Shown piece by piece: positions 6,230-39,296 of a DNA stretch of 64,000 nucleotides (position 1 is the first letter of the stretch; each line of letters opens with the position of its first letter). The stretch is taken from contig NZ_JIAC01000001.1 in NCBI RefSeq assembly GCF_000687995.1, forward strand, positions 1,054,001-1,118,000. The letters run 5' to 3'. The position numbers and the translations under genes were made by a program. Below the pieces are notes generated by a model, which was given only the letters and a program-made list of their open reading frames with translations, was not told the DNA's origin and searched no databases. This DNA is from Selenomonas ruminantium AC2024. Lineage in GTDB: Bacteria; Bacillota; Negativicutes; Selenomonadales; Selenomonadaceae.

Positions 6230-8137
6230 ATGGCTAATAAACCTGAAAAAAAGATTATTGTCGTAGGCGGCGGCCTCTCCGGCCTCATGGCTACGCTGAA
6301 AATCTGCGAAGACGGCGGTAAGGTTGACCTCTTCTCTTATTGCCCGGTAAAACGCTCCCACTCTCTGTGCGCACAGGGCGGTATGAACGCCTGCATGGAT
6401 ACCAAGGGCGAGCATGACTCCATCTATGAGCACTTCGATGATACGGTATACGGCGGTGACTTCCTGGCTGACCAGCTGGCTGTTAAAGGCATGGTTGAAG
6501 CAGCTCCGAAGCTCGTGCACATGTTTGACCGCATGGGCGTGCCTTTCACCCGTACGCCGGAAGGTGTTCTTGACCTCCGTAACTTCGGTGGCCAGAAGAA
6601 CAAACGTACCGTATTTGCCGGTTCTACGACGGGCCAGCAGCTCCTCTATGCTCTCGACGAGCAGGTTCGCCGTTGGGAAGTTAAGGGCGGCGTAAAGAAA
6701 TATGAATTCTGGGAATTCATCAAGATCATCAAGAACAAAGACGGTGTTTGCCGTGGTATCGTTGCTCAGAACATGAACTCCAACGAAATCCAGGCTTTCC
6801 CCGCTGATGTGGTAATCCTTGCTACTGGTGGCCCTGGCCAGGTATATGGCCGCTGCACGGCTTCCACCATCTGCAATGGTTCCGCCGTATCTGCTGTTTA
6901 CCAGCAGGGCGCAGAAATCGGCAACCCCGAATTCCTGCAGATTCATCCGACGGCTATTCCGGGTTCTGATAAGAACCGTCTGATGTCCGAAGCCTGCCGT
7001 GGTGAAGGCGGCCGCGTTTGGGTATATCGCAAGAACCCCCAGACGGGCGAAAAAGAACGCTGGTACTTCCTCGAAGATATGTATCCGGCATACGGCAACC
7101 TCGTACCGCGTGACGTTGCTTCCCGTGCAATCTACAAGGTCGTTGTTCACATGGGCCTCGGCATGACCAACCCGAACCGCGTATACCTCGACCTCTCCCA
7201 TATCCCGGCTGATTACCTCGAACGCAAGCTCGGCGGTATCCTCGAAATGTACGATGATTTCGTAGGTCAGGATCCGCGTAAGGTGCCGATGGAAATCTTC
7301 CCGTCCATCCATTACTCCATGGGTGGTATCTGGGTAGACAGAGAACACCACACCAACATCCCGGGCCTCATGGCTTCCGGCGAATGCGACTACCAGTACC
7401 ATGGTGCAAACCGTCTGGGTGCAAACTCCCTGCTGTCTGCTACCTATTCCGGCACGATTTCCGGTCCGGAAGCTCTGCGCCTCGCTCGCAGCGGCAAGCT
7501 CGGTGACGCTCTCACCGCAGAAGAACTCGAAGCAGCCCGTCAGGAATGCGTTGCTGAATTCGATAAGATTCGCAACATGAACGGTGCTGAAAATGCACAT
7601 CAGATGCACCATGAACTCGGTGACATCATGTACAAGTACGTGTCCATCGAACGCGATAACAACGGCCTCAAACAGTGCATGAAAGAACTCCATGCCCTGC
7701 TCAAACGTTGGGACAACATCGGTGTTACGGACCATGGCAACTGGGCAAACCAGGAAGCTATGTTCGTTCGTCAGCTCCGCAACATGATCATCTATGCTAT
7801 GGCCATCACCAAGTCCGCTCTGCAGCGTGACGAAAGCCGTGGCGCTCATGCCAAGATTGTGCTCAAATCCGACTACGATTCCTGGGATGCAGCTAAGAAG
7901 CAGGCCTTCGATGAAAAGAATGGCAAATACCATTTCGATGCTGAGACTGGCCGTGCCATGACTGACGATGGCAATGATGATTTGCTGTTCTTTGGCCGTG
8001 ATGATGAGAAATTCATGCGTACCACGGTGGTATCTTTTGACGCTGCCAACAGTGAACCGGAAGTTTCCTATCGTGAATTTGAACACTCTCTCATTAAGCC
8101 GCGTCTGCGTAACTACGCTGTAGCTAAGAAAGAGTAA
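6230..8137 (+). CDS. frdA: Fumarate reductase/succinate dehydrogenase flavoprotein subunit
   Basis: 635 residues. The catalytic subunit, most likely running as fumarate reductase in this fermentative setting, facing the cytoplasm. The dinucleotide fold VVGGGLSGLMAT is at 11-22, the covalent-FAD histidine is expected at H44 in RSHSLCAQGG, and the substrate region HPTAIPGS lies near residue 240. The C-terminus carries the helical and capping segments of the family. Codon use is strongly biased, consistent with high expression. The iron-sulfur gene begins 18 bases later. Confidence 0.95.
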   Translation: MANKPEKKIIVVGGGLSGLMATLKICEDGGKVDLFSYCPVKRSHSLCAQGGMNACMDTKGEHDSIYEHFDDTVYGGDFLADQLAVKGMVEAAPKLVHMFDRMGVPFTRTPEGVLDLRNFGGQKNKRTVFAGSTTGQQLLYALDEQVRRWEVKGGVKKYEFWEFIKIIKNKDGVCRGIVAQNMNSNEIQAFPADVVILATGGPGQVYGRCTASTICNGSAVSAVYQQGAEIGNPEFLQIHPTAIPGSDKNRLMSEACRGEGGRVWVYRKNPQTGEKERWYFLEDMYPAYGNLVPRDVASRAIYKVVVHMGLGMTNPNRVYLDLSHIPADYLERKLGGILEMYDDFVGQDPRKVPMEIFPSIHYSMGGIWVDREHHTNIPGLMASGECDYQYHGANRLGANSLLSATYSGTISGPEALRLARSGKLGDALTAEELEAARQECVAEFDKIRNMNGAENAHQMHHELGDIMYKYVSIERDNNGLKQCMKELHALLKRWDNIGVTDHGNWANQEAMFVRQLRNMIIYAMAITKSALQRDESRGAHAKIVLKSDYDSWDAAKKQAFDEKNGKYHFDAETGRAMTDDGNDDLLFFGRDDEKFMRTTVVSFDAANSEPEVSYREFEHSLIKPRLRNYAVAKKE

Positions 8138-8154
8138 GAGGGAGGACAATAACA

Positions 8155-8907
8155 ATGGCAGAACAGAAAAAAGTCAGATTCGTAATCGAGCGTCAGGATG
8201 GCCCGGATTCGGCCCCCTATACGCAAGAATTCGATGTAGATTACCGTCCGGGCCTCAACGTTGTTGCCGCCCTGATGGAAATTCAGAAGAACCCGGTCAC
8301 CGTTGACGGCAAGAAAGTTGCTCCTGTTGTTTGGGAATGCAACTGCCTGGAAAAAGTTTGCGGTGCCTGCATGATGGTTATCAACGGCAAAGCTCGTCAG
8401 GCTTGCTGCTCCCTGATTGACAATCTGGAACAGCCCATCCGCCTGCAGCCGGCTCGTACGTTCCCGGTTATCCGTGACCTCTTAATCGACCGCTCTGTTA
8501 TGTTTGAAAGCCTCAAACGCATTCAGGGCTGGGTTGAAGTTGACGGCACCTGGGAAGTTAAGGATGCTCCGATTCAGAACCCGTACACCGCACAGACGGC
8601 TTACGAGATTTCTCACTGCATGACCTGCGGCTGCTGCATGGAAGCATGCCCGAACGTAGGTCCGCAGTCCGACTTCATCGGCCCGTCCCCGACGGTTCAG
8701 GCATATCTCTTCAACCTGCATCCGCTGGGAAAATTCGACGCTCCGAAGCGCCTGAATGCCCTGATGGAAAAAGGCGGCATCACCAGCTGCGGCAACAGCC
8801 AGAACTGCGTACAGGCCTGCCCGAAGAACATCAAGCTCACGACTTATCTCGCACAGCTTAACCGCGATGTGAATAAGCAGGCTCTGAAGAATATCTTCAA
8901 CCACTAA
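8155..8907 (+). CDS. frdB: Fumarate reductase/succinate dehydrogenase iron-sulfur subunit
   Basis: 250 residues carrying the electron wire between FAD and heme. The [2Fe-2S] cysteines are C62, C64 (either could serve as the first ligand), C69, C72 and C84; the second domain has CMTCGCCMEACP (C155, C158, C161, C165) and CGNSQNCVQACP (C212, C218, C222), the usual set for the [4Fe-4S] and [3Fe-4S] clusters. ATG start with GGGAGGA. A strong terminator follows, ending the five-gene fumarase/fumarate reductase unit. Confidence 0.95.
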   Translation: MAEQKKVRFVIERQDGPDSAPYTQEFDVDYRPGLNVVAALMEIQKNPVTVDGKKVAPVVWECNCLEKVCGACMMVINGKARQACCSLIDNLEQPIRLQPARTFPVIRDLLIDRSVMFESLKRIQGWVEVDGTWEVKDAPIQNPYTAQTAYEISHCMTCGCCMEACPNVGPQSDFIGPSPTVQAYLFNLHPLGKFDAPKRLNALMEKGGITSCGNSQNCVQACPKNIKLTTYLAQLNRDVNKQALKNIFNH

Positions 8908-8929
8908 TTGCATAAGCAATAGCAATAAT

Positions 8930-8956
8930 GCCCCCGCCGTTGGCGGGGGCATTTTG
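8930..8956 (+). terminator. Terminator of the fumarate reductase operon
   Basis: A perfect 9-bp GC stem (GCCCCCGCC / GGCGGGGGC) with a 3-nt loop, followed by ATTTTGT. It lies between frdB and the converging Fic gene. Confidence 0.85.
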
Positions 8957-10168
8957 TCACTCTTGAGAGTGTGTATAGCGGAGCTTGTATAAATAATTTT
9001 TCGTCCTGCTGTCAACTAGCAATAGTTCAGCAGGAATTTTTTTTAGGTGGGCATAGATAGTGTTTTCGCTTTTGTCCAGATATTTTTGTAAGTCCTTCAT
9101 ACTAAGACCATGGGGAGAGAAGATTGTGCCTTGCAGGAGCAGGTCGCAGAGGTGATTGGTGGTTTTATTGGGGAGGTCGAGTTTTGTCAGCTTAGGCAGG
9201 CAGCTTTCATAGTTGGCAAGTTTTTCCTGTAAAGCATAACTGGTGTTTTGCAGGGCTTCTACGGAAAATTCCAGCATGCCGGTGATAAAGGGGGTCAGGT
9301 CGCCGCGATTGCAGTCGGCATCGGTGATGGTAAAGAGCTTATAATATTTGCTGCGTTGGTTCTTAATTAGCACAGATAGGCCCAAAGCAACAGCTGGATG
9401 GAGTCTCTGTGTCAGATAATAGGCGGTAATAAAGCGGGACAGGCGGCCGTTACCATCATAGAAGGGATGGATATAGCCGAAGAGGTAATGGAAAATCGCC
9501 ACGCGGATGAAGATAGGGAGGGTGTCATCATTGAGGATGGCAAGAGCGTTATCCATATATGCGATGATTTTGGCTTCGGGGTAGAGTCCGCGATGGACGG
9601 TTTTCTGGGAGGCGGACACGATATCTACACTGTCACGGCGGAAAATTTTGCCATCGGGCAAATTATGTGGTTCTTCGCGCTTTATCTCGTCATAGATAAA
9701 ATCGTCAAATAAGCGACGGATATCCTGGCTGCTATTGAGGTTAAGTTTTGCACCGTCTATAATTTTTTCGTATTGGCTGACAAGGTTCCCTAGCCGTAGG
9801 GAGGAACGTTCCTGTACAGGACGGTTAAGGGCATCTATAATTTCCTTGCGGGTACTGCGTACCCCTTCGATATCATTACTGGACTTAATTTCGTCAATCA
9901 GGCAGGTGTGAAGGTAGAGGGGCATTGCCATAGGCGGCAGTCTGCCTGCAGTTTGTGTGAATTGATGAAATCCATTCATGATTTTGTCCTGCAGCAATGC
10001 AATCTCTTCCGTGTAGCAAAAAAAAGCAGGATGCTCCTGTTGGCGGCCATATTGGCTGATACTGACAGGCAAATGACGTGCTGCTGCGCTGTGGAAGCGT
10101 TGGCTGTATTCCTTTTCCCAGTCAGCTGGGCTTTTATAGTAGATATGATAAAGAGATTCGTAAAGCAT
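8957..10168 (-). CDS. Fic-domain protein with N-terminal self-inhibitory motif
   Basis: 403 residues from the ATG at 10168, which has GAGGT at the right distance; the frame is open further upstream but lacks a ribosome site there and would cross the promoter. Fic proteins usually transfer AMP from ATP to target hydroxyls. The active-site loop HPFYDGNGRLSR is intact at 234-245. The inhibitory helix motif (S/T)xxxE(G/N) appears as SNDIEG at 97-102, so this is a class II Fic protein silenced in cis. The C-terminal ~90 residues look like a winged-helix segment. No antitoxin gene is adjacent, as expected for a self-inhibited member. Target unknown. Confidence 0.9.
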   Translation of the reverse strand: MLYESLYHIYYKSPADWEKEYSQRFHSAAARHLPVSISQYGRQQEHPAFFCYTEEIALLQDKIMNGFHQFTQTAGRLPPMAMPLYLHTCLIDEIKSSNDIEGVRSTRKEIIDALNRPVQERSSLRLGNLVSQYEKIIDGAKLNLNSSQDIRRLFDDFIYDEIKREEPHNLPDGKIFRRDSVDIVSASQKTVHRGLYPEAKIIAYMDNALAILNDDTLPIFIRVAIFHYLFGYIHPFYDGNGRLSRFITAYYLTQRLHPAVALGLSVLIKNQRSKYYKLFTITDADCNRGDLTPFITGMLEFSVEALQNTSYALQEKLANYESCLPKLTKLDLPNKTTNHLCDLLLQGTIFSPHGLSMKDLQKYLDKSENTIYAHLKKIPAELLLVDSRTKNYLYKLRYTHSQE

Positions 10169-10440: not shown

Positions 10441-12144
10441 ATGAGAAAGAATAATCGTATTCCCCTAAGCCCTTGTTTGCGCCGTTTCCGCTTCTATTTT
10501 GATTTGCTGGGTAAGACGGCCAAAGACTATCTGTTTTTTACGGATTTACAGGAAAATTTGGTAATGGTGTCGCCGAATCTGGCCAATGAGTTTGACCTGC
10601 CCGGCGAAATCATGTATGACTTTGACCAGTATTGGATGCCACTAGTTCATCCCGAGGAGCGGGGGAGCTATCAGGCCTCAATCGCCAAGGTCATGGCTTC
10701 TAAGGTGCCTTGTGAACATAATATGGAGTACCGGGTTAAGACCCGCAAAGGCGAGTATGTCTGGATAAGCTGCCGTGGCCGGGTCGGACTTGACCGTGAC
10801 GGTAATCCCTATATGTTTGTGGGAACCATGTCCCGCATGGCTCAGCGTAATCAAGCGGATGAGGTGACTGGTCTCCTGAACAAGTATCAGTTTGAGCATG
10901 CGGTCAAGATGGCGCTGGCGCAGTACCGGACAACTGGTGAAGGCGGGGCCATTATGGTGATGGGCCTGGATAATTTCAAGATTGTCAACGAAACGTATAA
11001 TCGCATGACCGGGGATTTGGTTCTGAAGCGGGTGTCGGATATCATTGGCAATGTTATCCCTTCAGAACTCACGCTGTTCAAGCTGGATGGGGATGAGTTC
11101 GCCCTGATTTATCCCGGTGCCAAGGAGCAGGAAGTGGCGGAAATCTTTGCCAGCGTGCAGAGTGCCCTGTCACGCCCTCAGGACATTGAAGGTCACCAGT
11201 ATTTTTGCACGGCTTCCTGTGGCACTGTATTCTATCCCGAGGCTGGGAAGGATTATCTGGTGCTGCATAAGCATGCAGAAGCGGCTATGGATATTGCCAA
11301 GCGGGAAGGCAAAAACCGCAATACGATTTTCAGCAAAGAGCAGTACAACCGCTGGGTGCGCTCGATTTCCATGCGGGACAGCATTTGGGAGAGCGTGGAA
11401 AATGGCTGCGTAGGGTTCAGTCTGTTCTTCCAGCCTCAGGTCAGCGCCGGTGACCAGAAACTTATCGGTGCGGAAGCTCTGCTGCGCTGGAAAAATCCCA
11501 AGGGCCGCATGGTGGCACCGATGGAATTTATTCCCATTTTGGAGGAAACCAAGCTCATCATACCCGTGGGCAAATGGGTGGCAGAGCAGGCCATCAAGAC
11601 CTGTAAGAAGTGGCGGCGTTATGTGCCGAATTTCCGGGTCAGCGTCAATATGAGCTACGAGCAAATAAAGGATTTATCCTTTAAGAAATTCGTAGAGGAG
11701 TGTCTGGAGCGTTATGACATGCCGTCGGATTCCATTGTGCTGGAACTTACGGAGAGTAAGATTGTAGCGGACTGGACGTTTATCAACAAGCAGTTTGATT
11801 CCTTCCGTCAGATGGGGATTGCCGTGGCTATGGATGACTTTGGCACGGGCTATTCTTCGTTGGCCTCTTTGAAGAATCTTTCCTGCGATATCGTCAAGAT
11901 TGACCGGGAATTCGTGAAGAAGATTCTGGAAAATGAGTTTGACCGCCGTCTGGTGCAGTATGTGGTAGACCTTTGCCACAGCATTGGCATTTACTGCTGC
12001 ATTGAAGGGGTGGAAGAAGAAGCTGAATATGAGCTTTTGACCAAGGAATGCAAGGCAGATGCCATTCAGGGATATTTGTTCGGCCATCCGGAAAGCGTGG
12101 CCGACTTTGAAGAGAAATTTCTTAAGTTGGAGAAAGAGGCATAA
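10441..12144 (+). CDS. PAS-GGDEF-EAL protein, probable c-di-GMP phosphodiesterase
   Basis: 567 residues from the ATG at 10441, chosen because TAGGA lies 8 bases before it (an in-frame ATG at 10432 has no good site). A PAS-like sensor (about 25-135) precedes a GGDEF domain (about 138-300) and an EAL domain (about 310-560). The GGDEF domain looks inactive: its signature is DGDEF (216-220) and the metal-binding aspartate of LDxDxFK is glycine (GLDNFK, 175-180). The EAL residues are intact: EALLRW 345-350, NMS 403-405, [14 protein letters not shown] 465-473, KID, EGVE, QGYLF. It likely degrades c-di-GMP. No signal peptide. Stop and the queF start overlap (TAATG). Confidence 0.9.
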
Positions 12145-32862: not shown

Positions 32863-32984
32863 ACATCACCGTGACTCTGATTTCAGAGTTGTGCCTGCGA
32901 GCGATGGGTAGGGGATTGAATCTAGCGTGGGGTATTCAGATACCGGCGGTTTTTTACTGTGGGTCTGTTTGGCACGATTATTAG

Positions 32985-33026
32985 ACGGCAATCTTTTTGC
33001 ATTCGCGAAAAGGTTGCCGTTTTTTG
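32985..33026 (+). terminator. Riboswitch-linked terminator before mutA
   Basis: ACGGCAATCTTTT (32985-32997) pairs with AAAAGGTTGCCGT (33008-33020), one G-U pair, followed by six T residues, 33 bases before the mutA start. It is in the leader, not after a gene, so it is the likely expression platform. Confidence 0.8.
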
Positions 33027-33058
33027 TGTGTTTACCCCGAAAAAGAGGAGGCTGTGCT

Positions 33059-35233
33059 ATGAGTAACGAAACCGGTGGCGAGCTGGACCTGCAGGCCATT
33101 TTGAAAAAGGCCGAACAGCAGACAGACTTTCCCGATGTTCCCTTGGACGAGTTTACCCCGCCCACTTATGAGGAGTGGAAGGAAGCCTGTATCGCCCTCT
33201 TGAAGGGAGCCCCCTTCGAGAAGAAAATGTACACCAAAACTTATGAGGGCATCACCTTCGACCCTATGTATTTCCGTAGGGATACCGAAGACATCCTGCC
33301 CAAAGATTCTTTCCCCGGCATGGATGATTTCCTGCGCGGGGCCCAGCCCAGCGGTTATTTGGGTAAGCCTTGGGGCATAGCGCAGGTCTGTGATGAAACC
33401 ATGCCTGCTGAGAACAATGAACTCCTGCGCCATGAACAGGAGAAAGGTTCCACCATCTATCATATCAAGCTGGACAGTGCGAGCTTGAAGGCACAGGATG
33501 TGCGCACGGCAGCAGCCCCCGGGGATGAGGGCGTGTCAGTGACCACGCTGGATGATATGCACACCCTGCTGAATGGCTTGAAGCTGGATAAATATCCTCT
33601 GTATCTCTATGCCGGTGAGTCGGCACTTCCCATGTTGTCGCTGTTTGCCGGGGCCCTCAAAGCCTCCGGCCAGGATTTGGCGAAAGTGCGGGGCATCGTT
33701 GGCGCTGACCCCTTGGGGGAATTGACGGCTGTTGGCAAAAACAGCAAGGCCGTTTCGAGTCTCTATGATGAAATGGCCAAATGTGCGCAGTGGGCCGTGA
33801 AGAATGCACCGGGTCTGAAGACTGTCTTTGTGCGCAGTGATGTGTACAGCCGGGGCGGGGCAAATGATGTGCAGGAGTCGGCCTATACGCTGGCCACGGC
33901 GGTAGCCTATCTCAGAGCGATGTTGGAACGAGGCCTGACCATTGAGGAGGCTGCGGGTCAGATTATGTTCGGCTTCTCCATGGGCGCCAACTTCTTCCTG
34001 CAGATTGCCAAACTGCGTGCTCTGCGGCCGCTTTGGGCACAGATTGTGGAAGCCTTCGGCGGTAGCAAGGAAGCGCAGCGCATGCATATCCATGCAAGAC
34101 CGGCACTGTTCTTCAAGACTGTCTATGACCCGTATGTCAATATGCTCCGCAATACCACGGAGATTTTCTCCGGTGTCGTGGGCGGTGTAGATTCCTTTGA
34201 AAGTTCGCCTTTTGATGAACCCATCCGCAAGGGGGATGAATTCTCCCGCCGTATTGCGCGGAACGTGCAGATTATTCTGCAGGAGGAATTCGGCCTGTTG
34301 CAGCCCATTGACCCCGCAGGCGGTTCCTGGGCAGTAGAAACGCTCACGAAGCAGATGAAGGAAAAAATTTGGGCAGAGTTCCAGGTTATCGAGGGCAAGG
34401 GCGGCATGCTCGCCGCTTTGCAGGAAGGTTATCCGCAGAGCGAGATTGCAGCCATCCTCGCCTCCCGCTTCAAGGCTTCGGAAACCCGCAAGGACCGCAT
34501 TGTAGGCAACAATATGTATCCGAATATGACGGAAACTTTGCTCGACCCGCGGCCTGAAGATATGGCAGAGAACAAGAAACAGCGCACGGCGCAGGTAGAG
34601 GAATACCTGGCGGATATGGATGAAGCCTTTAAGGCGGAAAAACTTGCCGCGCTGAAAACTGCTATGAGTGTTGAAACGGCTATAGAAGCGGCACAAGCCG
34701 GGGCAACCACGGCAGAAATTGCTGCTGCCTTTGCCGCAGCGGCCAGTGAGGAAGTAACGGCTATTGCACCGCATCGCTGGAGTGAACGCTTTGAAGCCCT
34801 GCGCAAGACGACGGAGGATTACAAGGCTGAGCACAATGACAATGTCAAAATCTTCCTGGCCAATATGGGGCCCATTCCGCAGCATAAGGCCAGAGCAGAT
34901 TTCACCACGGGATTCCTGCAGGTTGGCGCATTTGAAGTGCTGACCAATAACGGCTTCCCCACGGTGGATGAAGCCGCGCAGGCCGCCAAGGAATCCGGAG
35001 CGGATGCGGTGGTTATCTGCTCCACGGATGCAACCTATCCCGAAATCGTGCCGGAGCTGGCACCGAAACTTCATGAGGCACTGCCCAATGCTACGGTATT
35101 CCTGGCCGGGGCAGCACCGAAAGAATTGCTGGATACTTACAATGAAGCAGGCATTGATGAATATATTTCCGTCAAGGCCAACTGCTATAAAATCCTGCAG
35201 CTCCTGCAGCAGAAGAAAGGGATGATTGCATAA
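33059..35233 (+). CDS. mutA: Methylmalonyl-CoA mutase small (beta) subunit
   Basis: 724 residues from the ATG at 33059 with GAGGAGG upstream; the open frame reaches back to 32927 but that would overlap the leader terminator. MutA is the non-catalytic partner of MutB, needed for the heterodimer. It has the mutase barrel (about 30-560) with [20 protein letters not shown] near 305-324, and a C-terminal B12-type fold that lacks the DxHxxG cobalt-ligand motif ([10 protein letters not shown] near 605), as is normal for this subunit. It abuts mutB: its TAA ends where the mutB ATG begins. Confidence 0.95.
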
Positions 35234-37434
35234 TGGGAACTTACCAGAATCCTGATTTTACCAATATGAGTCTGCGGGAACCAACGGGAGCCGATGTGAA
35301 GGAGTGGGAAAAACTCTTTTCCGCACAGGCTGGAGCAGACTTTGATGCCTATACCCGCCGTACGATGGAACATATTCCCGTAAAGCCGCTGTACAACCAT
35401 GACGAATACGACCATATGAATCATCTGGACTTTGCCAGCGGGATTCCACCGTGCCTGCGTGGCCCGTATTCGACCATGTATGTGTTCCGTCCCTGGACGG
35501 TACGCCAGTATGCAGGTTTCTCCACGGCGGAAGAATCCAATGCGTTCTATCGCCGCAATCTGGCCGCTGGTCAGAAGGGCCTGTCCATCGCCTTTGACCT
35601 GCCGACGCACCGCGGCTATGATGCGGATAATCCCCGCGTGGTCGGTGACGTAGGTAAGGCCGGCGTGTCGGTCTGCTCCATGCTTGATATGAACATTCTG
35701 TTCTCGGGGATTCCCCTTGACCAGATGTCCGTATCCATGACCATGAACGGTGCAGTGCTGCCGATTCTCGCCTTCTTTATCCAGTCTGGTGTCGAACAGG
35801 GCGTGGATAAGAAAATCATGGCGGGCACGATTCAGAACGATATTCTGAAAGAGTTCATGGTGCGTAACACCTATATCTATCCGCCGGAAATGTCCATGCG
35901 TATCATCGGCGATATCTTCGAGTATACGACGAAGTACATGCCGAAGTTCAACAGCATTTCGATTTCCGGTTACCATATGCAGGAAGCCGGGGCACCTGCC
36001 GATATCGAATTGGGCTATACGCTGGCCGATGGTCTGGAGTATATCCGCACCGGTATCAATGCCGGCCTGCCGGTGGATGCTTTTGCCAAGCGTCTGTCCT
36101 TCTTCTGGGCAATCGGCAAGAACTACTTTATGGAAGTGGCCAAGATGCGGGCGGCTCGTGTGCTCTGGGCGAAAATCGTCAAGTCCTTTGGCGCCAAGGA
36201 ACCCAAGTCCATGGCCCTCAGAACGCATTGCCAGACTTCGGGATGGTCGCTTACGGCGCAGGACCCGTTCAACAATATTTCTCGTACGGCCATGGAAGCC
36301 ATGGGCGCGGCACTCGGTCATACCCAGTCCCTGCATACCAACGCGCTGGATGAAGCCATTGCCCTGCCGACCGACTTCTCGGCCCGCATTGCGCGCAATA
36401 CGCAGCTCTATATTCAGGATGAAACCAAGGTCTGCAAGATTATCGACCCCTGGGGCGGTTCCTACTATGTGGAAGCCCTCACCAACGAAATCATCCGCCG
36501 CGCCTGGGCGCATATTCAGGAAGTCGAGGCCTTGGGCGGCATGGCCAAGGCGATTTCTACGGGCCTGCCCAAGATGCGTATCGAGGAAGCAGCAGCCCGC
36601 CGTCAGGCACAGATCGACTCGGGCAACGAAACGATTGTGGGCCTGAACAAGTACCGCCTCGAAAAGGAAGACCCGCTGGAAATCCTCGCTATCGACAACA
36701 CCGCCGTGCGCAATGCGCAGGTGGAACGCCTCGAAAAACTGCGGCGTGAACGCAATGAGGATGATGTGCGCCGGGCGCTCGAAGCGATTACGAAGGCTGC
36801 AGACAGCCGCGACAACGGCAACCTCTTGGAATGTGCCGTGGAGGCGGCAAGAGTCCGCGCTTCTCTGGGCGAAATCTCCGACGCTGTGGAAAAGGTTTCT
36901 GGCCGCTATCAGGCGGTTATTCATACCATTTCGGGAGTTTACTCCTCCGAGTTTACCGACAAGACCGAGCTGGATAAGGCCCGGGCTATGGCTGATGAGT
37001 TCGAGGAACTCACGGGCCGCCGTCCCCGTATCTTCGTGGCGAAGATGGGACAGGATGGCCACGACCGCGGTCAGAAAGTTATTGCTTCGTCCTTCGCCGA
37101 CATGGGCTGGGACGTTGATGTGGGCCCGCTCTTCCAGACGCCGGAGGAAACGGCGCAGGATGCTGTTGATAACGATGTGCACATGGTGGGTTTCAGTTCA
37201 CTGGCAGCGGGGCATAACACCCTCCTGCCCCAGCTGGTGGACGAATTGAAGAAATTAGGCCGTGAGGATATCATGGTCTGCATCGGTGGCGTTATCCCTG
37301 TGCAGGATTATGACAACCTCTATCAGCATGGGGCCGTGGCTATCTTTGCTCCGGGCACCAATATTCCGGAAGCGGGCATTAAGCTCTTGACGCTGTTGAT
37401 TGACCGGGCTAAGGAGGAACTGGCCGAAGAATAA
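35233..37434 (+). CDS. mutB: Methylmalonyl-CoA mutase large (alpha, catalytic) subunit
   Basis: 733 residues. It interconverts succinyl-CoA and methylmalonyl-CoA using adenosylcobalamin, the carbon-skeleton step on the way to propionate. The barrel includes [18 protein letters not shown] (about 82-99) and [16 protein letters not shown] (about 119-134). The B12 domain carries DGHDRG (from about 607, cobalt-ligating histidine), [11 protein letters not shown] and the GGVIP loop. Start overlaps the mutA stop by one base. Confidence 0.97.
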
Positions 37435-37438
37435 AGAT

Positions 37439-37463
37439 AAGCCTTCTCCTATGGGGAAGGCTT
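37439..37463 (+). repeat. Short hairpin resembling the end of the MITE-like repeat
   Basis: AAGCCTTCTCC-TAT-GGGGAAGGCTT forms an 11-bp stem with one G-U pair. It matches the terminal repeat of the element at 51331-51442 (AGCCTTCCCCTCTGGGGAAGG) with few differences. It lies between mutB and meaB, just before the meaB ribosome site, and could be a relic of that element or modulate meaB translation. Confidence 0.6.
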
Positions 37464-37477
37464 ACAAGGAGGCAATG

Positions 37478-38671
37478 ATGGAACAAAAGTATACGACATC
37501 AAAGCCAAGCTGGGTGCCGGAGGAAAAAAACGATAAATTTGCCTGCTCGGTCATGGGCGGCATCGAAGGCATCAAGGACACGACCGTGGGCAATATCAAT
37601 CCCGCCCTGCAAAGCGGGACGATGAAGCCCAAGAAGCGGCTCGTCATGTCCGAAGATGACTATGTGGACGGAGTCTTAAAAGGGGATAGAATGACTTTGT
37701 CCCGGGCCATTACCTTGATTGAAAGCAACAGTCCCCGCCACTTTGCCAAGGCTCAGCGGGTGCTGCAACGGCTTTTGCCCCATACGGGGCATGCCCTGCG
37801 CATTGGCATTACCGGCGTACCGGGGGCAGGCAAAAGCACCATGATTGAGGCCTTCGGCAATATGCTCTGCGATGACGGGCATAAAGTTGCGGTGCTGACC
37901 GTTGACCCGACAAGTTCTGTAACGAAAGGCTCCATACTGGGGGATAAGACCCGGATGGGGACCTTGTCCCGGCGGCGGGAGGCCTTTATCCGGCCTTCCC
38001 CTGCGGGGGGAACGCTGGGGGGCGTTGCCCGCAAGAGTCGGGAAACCATGTTGATGTGCGAAGCGGCAGGTTATGATGTCATCATCATTGAGACCGTTGG
38101 GGTGGGCCAGTCAGAAACCACCGTGCGGTCGATGGTGGACTTCTTCCTGCTCGTGGTGCTCACCGGTGCCGGGGATGAATTACAGGGAATCAAAAAGGGA
38201 ATCATGGAACTGGCCGATGCCATTGTGGTCAACAAGGCTGATGGGGATAATCTGGTCAAGGCCAAGGTGTCGCGGGGGCAGTATGAGCGGATGCTCGAAT
38301 ACATCCGCCCGGCAACCCCCGGCTGGCCCACCCATGCTTATATGTGTTCGGCGATGGAAAAGACAGGCCTTAAGGAACTCTGGGAAGTCATCAAGGGCTT
38401 TCGGGAGAACACGCAAAAGAGCGGTGTCTGGAATAAGCGCCGGGATAGCCAGCTGCTCGACTGGATGCACAGCATGATTGACGAGCATCTGCACAATCTC
38501 TTCTTTGAAGACCCGGTGATTACAGGCCGCATGCCTGAGGTCAGGGGCGCGGTGCTGGATGGCACCATTTCGCCGACGCAGGCCGTGGCCGAACTCGTGA
38601 AGCTCTTTGATGTGGAGCGGGCGGCCCATCGGCAGGTGGATATCTTCCATCCCGAACAGGAAAAGGGGTGA
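37478..38671 (+). CDS. meaB: MeaB/ArgK-type GTPase, methylmalonyl-CoA mutase chaperone
   Basis: 397 residues. G3E-family GTPase that protects and reloads the mutase with intact cofactor. Walker A GVPGAGKST is at 113-121, VDPTSSVTKGSILGDKTRM follows, then IETVGVGQSE and the guanine motif NKADGDN. Compared with typical MeaB (about 330 residues) it has an N-terminal extension of about 60 residues. The ATG at 37478 is 5 bases after GGAGG; the adjacent ATG at 37475 is too close. Overlaps the next gene by 4 bases. Confidence 0.95.
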   Translation: MEQKYTTSKPSWVPEEKNDKFACSVMGGIEGIKDTTVGNINPALQSGTMKPKKRLVMSEDDYVDGVLKGDRMTLSRAITLIESNSPRHFAKAQRVLQRLLPHTGHALRIGITGVPGAGKSTMIEAFGNMLCDDGHKVAVLTVDPTSSVTKGSILGDKTRMGTLSRRREAFIRPSPAGGTLGGVARKSRETMLMCEAAGYDVIIIETVGVGQSETTVRSMVDFFLLVVLTGAGDELQGIKKGIMELADAIVVNKADGDNLVKAKVSRGQYERMLEYIRPATPGWPTHAYMCSAMEKTGLKELWEVIKGFRENTQKSGVWNKRRDSQLLDWMHSMIDEHLHNLFFEDPVITGRMPEVRGAVLDGTISPTQAVAELVKLFDVERAAHRQVDIFHPEQEKG

Positions 38672-39240
38672 GTGTCGTATATACGAAGAAAATCTATTTT
38701 TCCGGCGGGGACTTCCATGAACTGCAGGAAGTATTTGCTCATGTACCGGGAGTGGTGTCAACCTGCGCAGGCTATATCAATGGGGACAGGGATACAATCT
38801 ACGCAGATGTTGCTGCAGGCGAAGTCAAAGCCTATATGGGTGTGGAAGTCACCTACAATCCCAAGAAGATGGATATTTCGCAGCTGCTGGATTTGCTCTT
38901 TGGCGTGGTCAATCCCTATGTGCCCGATGGTCAGGGGAAGGCCCGTGGGGAGATGTATCGGGCGGGAGTTTTCTACGCCTCAGCCGAAGATGAACCACAG
39001 GTGCAGCTGCATCTGAACTTTATCGCAAATCGCGGTAAAGCGCCCGTTGTGGGCAATGCCGGACTGACGGTGAATGATCCCAACAGCAATCCCAAGCTGG
39101 CGCGAAAATTATGTGCCATAGCGGCACCCTTGGAAAACTTTCAGCCAGCAGAGGCTGAACATCAGGATTACCTTGCACGTCATCCTGAGGCAGAGACTTA
39201 TATTGATTTTGACAAATTGCGGGCCTATGTGAAATTCTAG
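38668..39240 (+). CDS. MsrA-fold protein lacking the catalytic cysteine
   Basis: 190 residues, GTG start overlapping meaB by 4 bases. It aligns along its length with peptide methionine sulfoxide reductase A: FSGGDFHELQEVFAHVPGV (11-29) corresponds to the GGCFWC...EEVF..LPGV region, VEVTYNPKKMDISQLLDLLF to the vqVtYDP segment, and HQDYLARHP to the C-terminal end. But the catalytic cysteine position is D15 and the following tryptophan is histidine, so normal sulfoxide reduction is not expected. Cysteines remain only at C33 and near 148. A role beside the mutase and its GTPase, perhaps acyl-CoA or cofactor related, is inference. Confidence 0.75.
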   Translation: MSVVYTKKIYFSGGDFHELQEVFAHVPGVVSTCAGYINGDRDTIYADVAAGEVKAYMGVEVTYNPKKMDISQLLDLLFGVVNPYVPDGQGKARGEMYRAGVFYASAEDEPQVQLHLNFIANRGKAPVVGNAGLTVNDPNSNPKLARKLCAIAAPLENFQPAEAEHQDYLARHPEAETYIDFDKLRAYVKF

Positions 39241-39248
39241 TTTTGGAG

Positions 39249-39292
39249 AAACAGATGGTGAAAGCAACCATAACTTCACCATCTGTTTTTTT
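39249..39292 (+). terminator. Terminator of the mut operon
   Basis: A perfect 14-bp stem (39249-39262 with 39275-39288), 12-nt loop and T-tract, directly after the MsrA-like gene. Confidence 0.88.
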
Positions 39293-39296
39293 ATTT

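Follow-up and report, generated by a model that had tools for sequence, protein, structure and literature searches.

Why a methylmalonyl-CoA mutase operon should end in a gene for a protein with the fold of methionine sulfoxide reductase A (MsrA) that has no catalytic cysteine is the question raised by a locus of Selenomonas ruminantium AC2024, lying within the 64,000 nucleotides of contig NZ_JIAC01000001.1 (positions 1,054,001 to 1,118,000) that were analysed here and are referred to as the window. All elements of the operon are on the forward strand. It is preceded by a cobalamin riboswitch (RF00174, 32688..32872, 104.2 bits) and, between this and the first gene, a terminator-like hairpin found by a hairpin scan (32983..33022); there follow mutA, for the small subunit of the mutase (33059..35233, start set by eye in the open reading frame 32927-35233), mutB, for the large subunit with the B12-binding domain (35233..37434), and meaB, for the G-protein chaperone of the mutase (37478..38671, start set by eye in the frame 37400-38671), all three identified by profile matches. 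The last gene, here called pMsrA (38668..39240), starts with GTG and encodes 190 amino acids; directly 3' of it is a second terminator-like hairpin (39244..39293; -23.5 kcal/mol, z -7.6), absent from one scan in which the loop limit was 8. The meaB stop codon and the pMsrA start overlap by four bases, GTGA, as the initial annotation had reported when it placed the gene inside the mutase operon. A natural fusion of MeaB with pMsrA was also considered and none was seen; the frames of the two genes agree at some loci, with a stop codon between them.

That the protein aligns with MsrA along its length, as initially claimed, is confirmed by a Pfam PMSR match (PF01625) over residues 8-175 (E 1.4e-27 in a profile search) and by an AlphaFold model with the MsrA fold (pLDDT 83.4). 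The top PDB match of this model is 3bqf, the MsrA domain of Neisseria PilB (E 1.3e-15, TM 0.78/0.89), and matches outside MsrA were negligible in the fold search. Against TIGR00401, the NCBI equivalog for MsrA, pMsrA scores 88.5 bits, below the cut-off of 108.1. In comparison with 3bqf the window protein has the same fold, secondary-structure elements in the same order, the Gly-Gly loop ahead of helix 1 and both tyrosines (Tyr36 and Tyr97, equivalent to Tyr82 and Tyr134), whereas the catalytic cysteine, the tryptophan, the general-acid glutamate, the GND aspartate and the GYC cysteine are all missing. GGDFHEL stands at the position of the MsrA motif GGCFWG, so that the two substitutions first noticed, cysteine to Asp15 (GAC codon, 38710..38712, forward strand) and tryptophan to His17, are indeed present in 38668-39240; by alignment the equivalent of Glu94 is Met57, the aspartate of GND is Ala92, and the GYC cysteine is a threonine (GYCHI in 3bqf against ETYID). 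Trp53, the GND aspartate and the C-terminal GYC cysteine, the last as the recycling cysteine, are positions which we take to be functional in MsrA. The catalytic cysteine of MsrA is Cys51, with Glu94 as the general acid and Tyr82 or Tyr134 as proton donor, in the part of PMC6210582 that deals with these residues. Further differences from MsrA are the location in a mutase operon and an extra insert containing NDPNSNPK at about residues 124-147 (39037..39108, forward strand), which is conserved in the family and has low model confidence.

The fold assignment extends to reduced members. L053, a short relative without the segment carrying the GND aspartate and Tyr134, is still predicted to adopt the MsrA fold (pLDDT 81.5), and all 44 of its fold-search matches at E <= 0.001 were MsrA or MsrA/B chains, with 7c13 counted among them on its molecule name. 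When seven other Cys-less members were compared with PMSR, L118 and L140 fell under the Pfam cut-off and L141 gave no match. Selenocysteine at position 15 of the window protein was ruled out, the codon being GAC and not TGA; the same column holds sense codons in 176 census loci, whose frames had been delimited by stop codons, which would have hidden any TGA, and a stop inside the match was flagged in only a few places by the family search.

Loss of the cysteine is a property of a large family. Searches gave pMsrA matches in 156 of the 189 genomes of the Selenomonadaceae (f1, the organism's own family, its order comprising the identical 189 genomes), at least three of them through canonical MsrA only (G048 judged on its sequence, G049 and G112 on the score and the length of the frame). 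Among 178 loci extracted from 170 genomes, which were drawn from search matches and therefore give counts rather than frequencies, the catalytic cysteine is missing at 164 (two of them gaps) and present at 14; decay in a single strain is thus excluded. The 164 Cys-less loci carry D (82), S (37), N (34), P (3), K (3) and, once each, A, E and F at the cysteine position, and the equivalent of Glu94 is still glutamate at seven of them. A class search found full-length matches beyond the Selenomonadaceae in the Negativicutes families f27, f29 and f2. In a phylum sample of 398 genomes no full-length match beyond the own family was found at E <= 1e-28, a threshold that would miss divergent forms such as those of f2; the eight matches outside the own family at this threshold all covered positions 3-128 only. 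A divergent Cys-bearing MsrA with the motif CLW and an arginine at the Tyr82 position was also seen (L142 427-903, genome G281).

Could this be an msrA in decay that has survived by chance as the last gene of an operon? The gene does change faster than its neighbour, 14 of 15 pairs showing a larger non-synonymous difference for pMsrA than for meaB, and it has been lost from some genomes. However, its dN/dS is 0.04-0.18 (finite in 14 of 19 pairs) against 0.01-0.09 for meaB in 14 of the 15 pairs measured, several synonymous distances in these pairs being high; together with the spread through the family and a cysteine loss older than the split of three families, this makes decay scarcely credible, and unless dN/dS is grossly wrong it is already refuted. 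The repurposing of an MsrA fold proposed in the initial annotation is well supported, since the cysteine is missing across a large family that is under purifying selection. Between L004 and L035, 8% of synonymous sites differ in pMsrA and 40% in the adjacent meaB, a contrast that may reflect recombination inside the operon.

The positions that have been held constant give some indication of where such a protein might act. Twelve residues are fixed or nearly so in the Selenomonadaceae, namely E18, K66, D69, S71, D75, E107, D108, F118, R122, N136, D137 and R146, and in the divergent genus g11, which includes Quinella (L056), K66, D69, E107, D108, F118, R122 and N136-D137 are still found at 90-100%. 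Variation at the nucleophile position while other positions are fixed favours a site of action remote from the old active site over a new one at Asp15. This bears upon the idea that the old pocket has acquired a new site, catalytic or metal-binding, made up of Asp15, His17 and Glu18, an idea that the D-x-H-E pattern common in Selenomonas-like members and the near-invariance of Glu18 in the family might suggest; yet position 15 may be D, N, S, P, K or others, position 17 H, Y, R, N or others, and position 18 is glycine in f27, so that we consider a new enzyme improbable. The conserved set should itself be considered with caution. K66, D69, E107, R122 and N136 are already present in part of the Cys-bearing relatives of f29, and E18, D75 and R146 are not common to f27; residues that are present in f29 or absent from f27 may be structural or linked to the insert and not signs of a new function.

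It might equally be asked whether something of the old reaction persists, so that the protein still reduces methionine sulfoxide to some extent or binds it, for example by holding oxidised methionines without reducing them. Of the 164 Cys-less loci, 105 indeed have tyrosine at the equivalent of Tyr82 and 87 at that of Tyr134, but the nucleophile, the general acid and the GYC cysteine are all missing, and the tyrosines themselves are lost in f2 and in much of g11, a genus in which a deletion has removed the stretch containing the GND aspartate and Tyr134 and in which Tyr36 has mostly disappeared. We regard such a residual role as very improbable. The source genome (2.83 Mb, one contig) has no second PF01625 gene by profile search and no gene for MsrB (PF01641), for which the same search was positive in 10 of 14 control genomes; judged from its genome, the organism seems to be without the usual methionine sulfoxide reductases. 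As the PMSR assignment holds despite the lost chemistry, automatic annotation probably labels genes such as this one msrA.

How a catalyst became a non-catalyst can be followed unusually well in these bacteria, because Cys-bearing relatives with the insert coexist with linked Cys-less forms and relocated ones. The four MsrA proteins of f29 (L108-L111) share the family insert with pMsrA and, unlike it, retain the catalytic residues (Cys, Phe, Trp, Tyr82, Glu94, the GND aspartate and Tyr134 are all present); no mutAB or meaB was found around their genes in the 14.6-16.5 kb fetched, and two of the four genomes have a mutase operon elsewhere with no pMsrA adjoining. In a 59-row MsrA tree the Cys-less rows lie on one side of a branch (100/97), which persists at 100/98 in a 42-row tree from which the insert and motif columns had been removed, and the f29 proteins fall between the canonical and the Cys-less rows. 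A tree of MutB, MeaB and MutA, made by a short search, places the pMsrA operons together with two operons of genus g3 that have lost the gene in one group (SH-aLRT 99), with f29 next to it; the trees were rooted by the canonical rows and by operons without pMsrA. An insert in proteins that still have the cysteine, taken with both trees, indicates that the insert came first and that cysteine loss and entry into the operon map to the same region of the tree. The trees thus support a single origin, in which an insert-bearing MsrA lost its cysteine and joined the operon while Cys-bearing relatives persist unlinked in f29; on the sequences compared, the loss predates the split of the three families with pMsrA, namely the Selenomonadaceae, f27 and f2.

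Linkage with the mutase genes is found in all three of these families. There are 150 pMsrA places listed in the Selenomonadaceae, 137 of them with a MeaB place listed in the same genome, and in 93 of these 137 the gene lies directly 3' of meaB on the same strand. The 44 others are nearly all from g11 (43), the remaining one being a contig-edge piece after a meaB fragment; with g11 excluded, 89 of 90 directly follow meaB and the 90th is the one behind the fragment, on a short contig. Among genomes having MeaB of the window type, pMsrA comes after meaB in all four of f27, and in all three of f2 it stands before mutA as the first gene of the operon. The association with the mutase operon that was proposed from the window alone is therefore well supported, across three families and two gene orders, with most of g11 as the main exception. 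No Cys-bearing relative was found at the mutase locus, none of the 14 Cys-bearing loci showing mutA, mutB or meaB in the flanking DNA fetched, which spans about 4 to 8 kb and less near the end of a contig.

Presence of the two genes is also correlated. Among 99 good-quality genomes of the family, a hand count found MeaB at E <= 1e-60 in 79 of 80 with pMsrA and in six of 19 without it (Fisher p 6e-11, which ignores kinship and the joint deletion of neighbours); the sole pMsrA genome without a MeaB match, G092, has meaB fragments beside pMsrA at a contig edge. Joint loss is nevertheless weak evidence because neighbouring genes are deleted together anyway. MeaB of the window type occurs without pMsrA in f30, f20, G038, G048/G049 and four g3 genomes, and a further six genomes, from g11 and of varying completeness, match MeaB but not pMsrA; as several mutase operons do without it, pMsrA must be dispensable there. 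After its loss in g3, MeaB and MutB give no signal of relaxed constraint, and MutA shows slightly more change, at 6 of 257 fixed columns against 0-4, in a comparison whose MutA values leave out L129 and L131, where the contig ends within mutA and mutB had been matched in its place. A second MeaB-like GTPase (about 33-44% identity) was also noticed, encoded at another location in those genomes that have the mutase-linked MeaB as well.

These operons lacking pMsrA lead to the main rival explanation, that pMsrA is in the operon for B12-responsive expression only and has a non-catalytic role of its own outside the mutase. The riboswitch does accompany mutase operons whether or not pMsrA is among their genes: it precedes the operon at all 13 other operon-bearing loci scanned, among them L140, where it stands before pMsrA as the first gene, and L128, L231, L234 and L235, whose mutase operons are free of pMsrA, and it is hence a feature of the operon rather than of pMsrA. 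Scans of five relocated g11 loci and of the f29 locus L110 gave no cobalamin riboswitch above the cut-off. No novelty is claimed for a cobalamin riboswitch ahead of mutase genes; by contrast, Xylanibacter ruminicola KHP1, a rumen bacterium, has four predicted cobalamin riboswitches and none of them is close to genes of the propionate pathway (PMC11575231). At L112 two further cobalamin riboswitches (7306-7479 and 7577-7750) closely follow pMsrA on its own strand.

The same rival draws on g11, in most of whose genomes pMsrA has moved to unrelated locations and is still under purifying selection, two relocated pairs giving dN/dS of 0.12 and 0.13. The relocated genes are mostly amid unrelated genes, the downstream gene being LCP-like, as judged by eye, at 31 of the 54 loci that have one; in a single genome, that of L054, pMsrA lies just before genes resembling cobB (8560-9942) and cobU (10559-11107), again by eye. 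However, the mutase genes of this genus have not stayed together either. Four g11 genomes retain pMsrA after meaB, and of seven with a relocated copy six have no mutA or mutB around meaB (8.9-13 kb), the seventh, L242, having mutB next but one to it. With meaB mostly separate from mutAB in g11 (L136, L137, L138, L242, L243, L244, L246), the move of pMsrA appears to be part of a dispersal of the whole operon. This, and a linkage that holds in three families and two gene orders, pMsrA being the first operon gene in f2, leads us to regard a role outside the mutase as rather unlikely.

What is supported, then, is the fold, the residue losses, membership of the operon, a single origin, purifying selection and an old active site that is free to vary. 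The initial annotation, with its suggestion of a repurposed fold that serves the mutase, MeaB or the cofactor, is thereby borne out in part. The explanation that we prefer, with confidence evenly balanced, is that pMsrA is a non-catalytic accessory of the mutase/MeaB system acting by protein binding, both the partner and the effect being deduced from context. An MsrA would have acquired an insert some 20 residues long, lost the catalytic cysteine once within the Negativicutes and become fixed, Cys-less, in a mutA-mutB-meaB operon under cobalamin-riboswitch control, where it would work without chemistry by binding some component of the system, MeaB, MutA and MutB being alike candidates, and might thereby assist assembly, the loading of adenosylcobalamin or the removal of damaged cofactor. 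The more specific proposal, that in propionate-forming Negativicutes it is a binding subunit and thus a component so far overlooked in the metallochaperone machinery of adenosylcobalamin mutase and MeaB, is put forward tentatively. Confidence in both readings is the lower because several of the seemingly newly conserved residues already occur in the Cys-bearing proteins of f29.

In being encoded with a chaperone and its client, pMsrA resembles the accessories of G-protein metallochaperones such as MeaB/MMAA with the adenosyltransferase, and no MsrA-fold member of these systems and no assay of pMsrA was found in the open-licence PMC literature. A general analogy is offered by pseudoenzymes such as the iRhoms (PMC3149277). 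These differ in fold and setting and have likewise kept a fold and lost catalysis in favour of regulation or binding. Should the accessory role prove true, the propionate-forming mutase of common rumen bacteria would have an extra part that has been overlooked. One further candidate role, that of a replacement methylmalonyl-CoA epimerase in an operon without mce, was rejected, as the source genome encodes an epimerase (TIGR03081) at G000:C1:2150806-2151195, far from the mutase operon.
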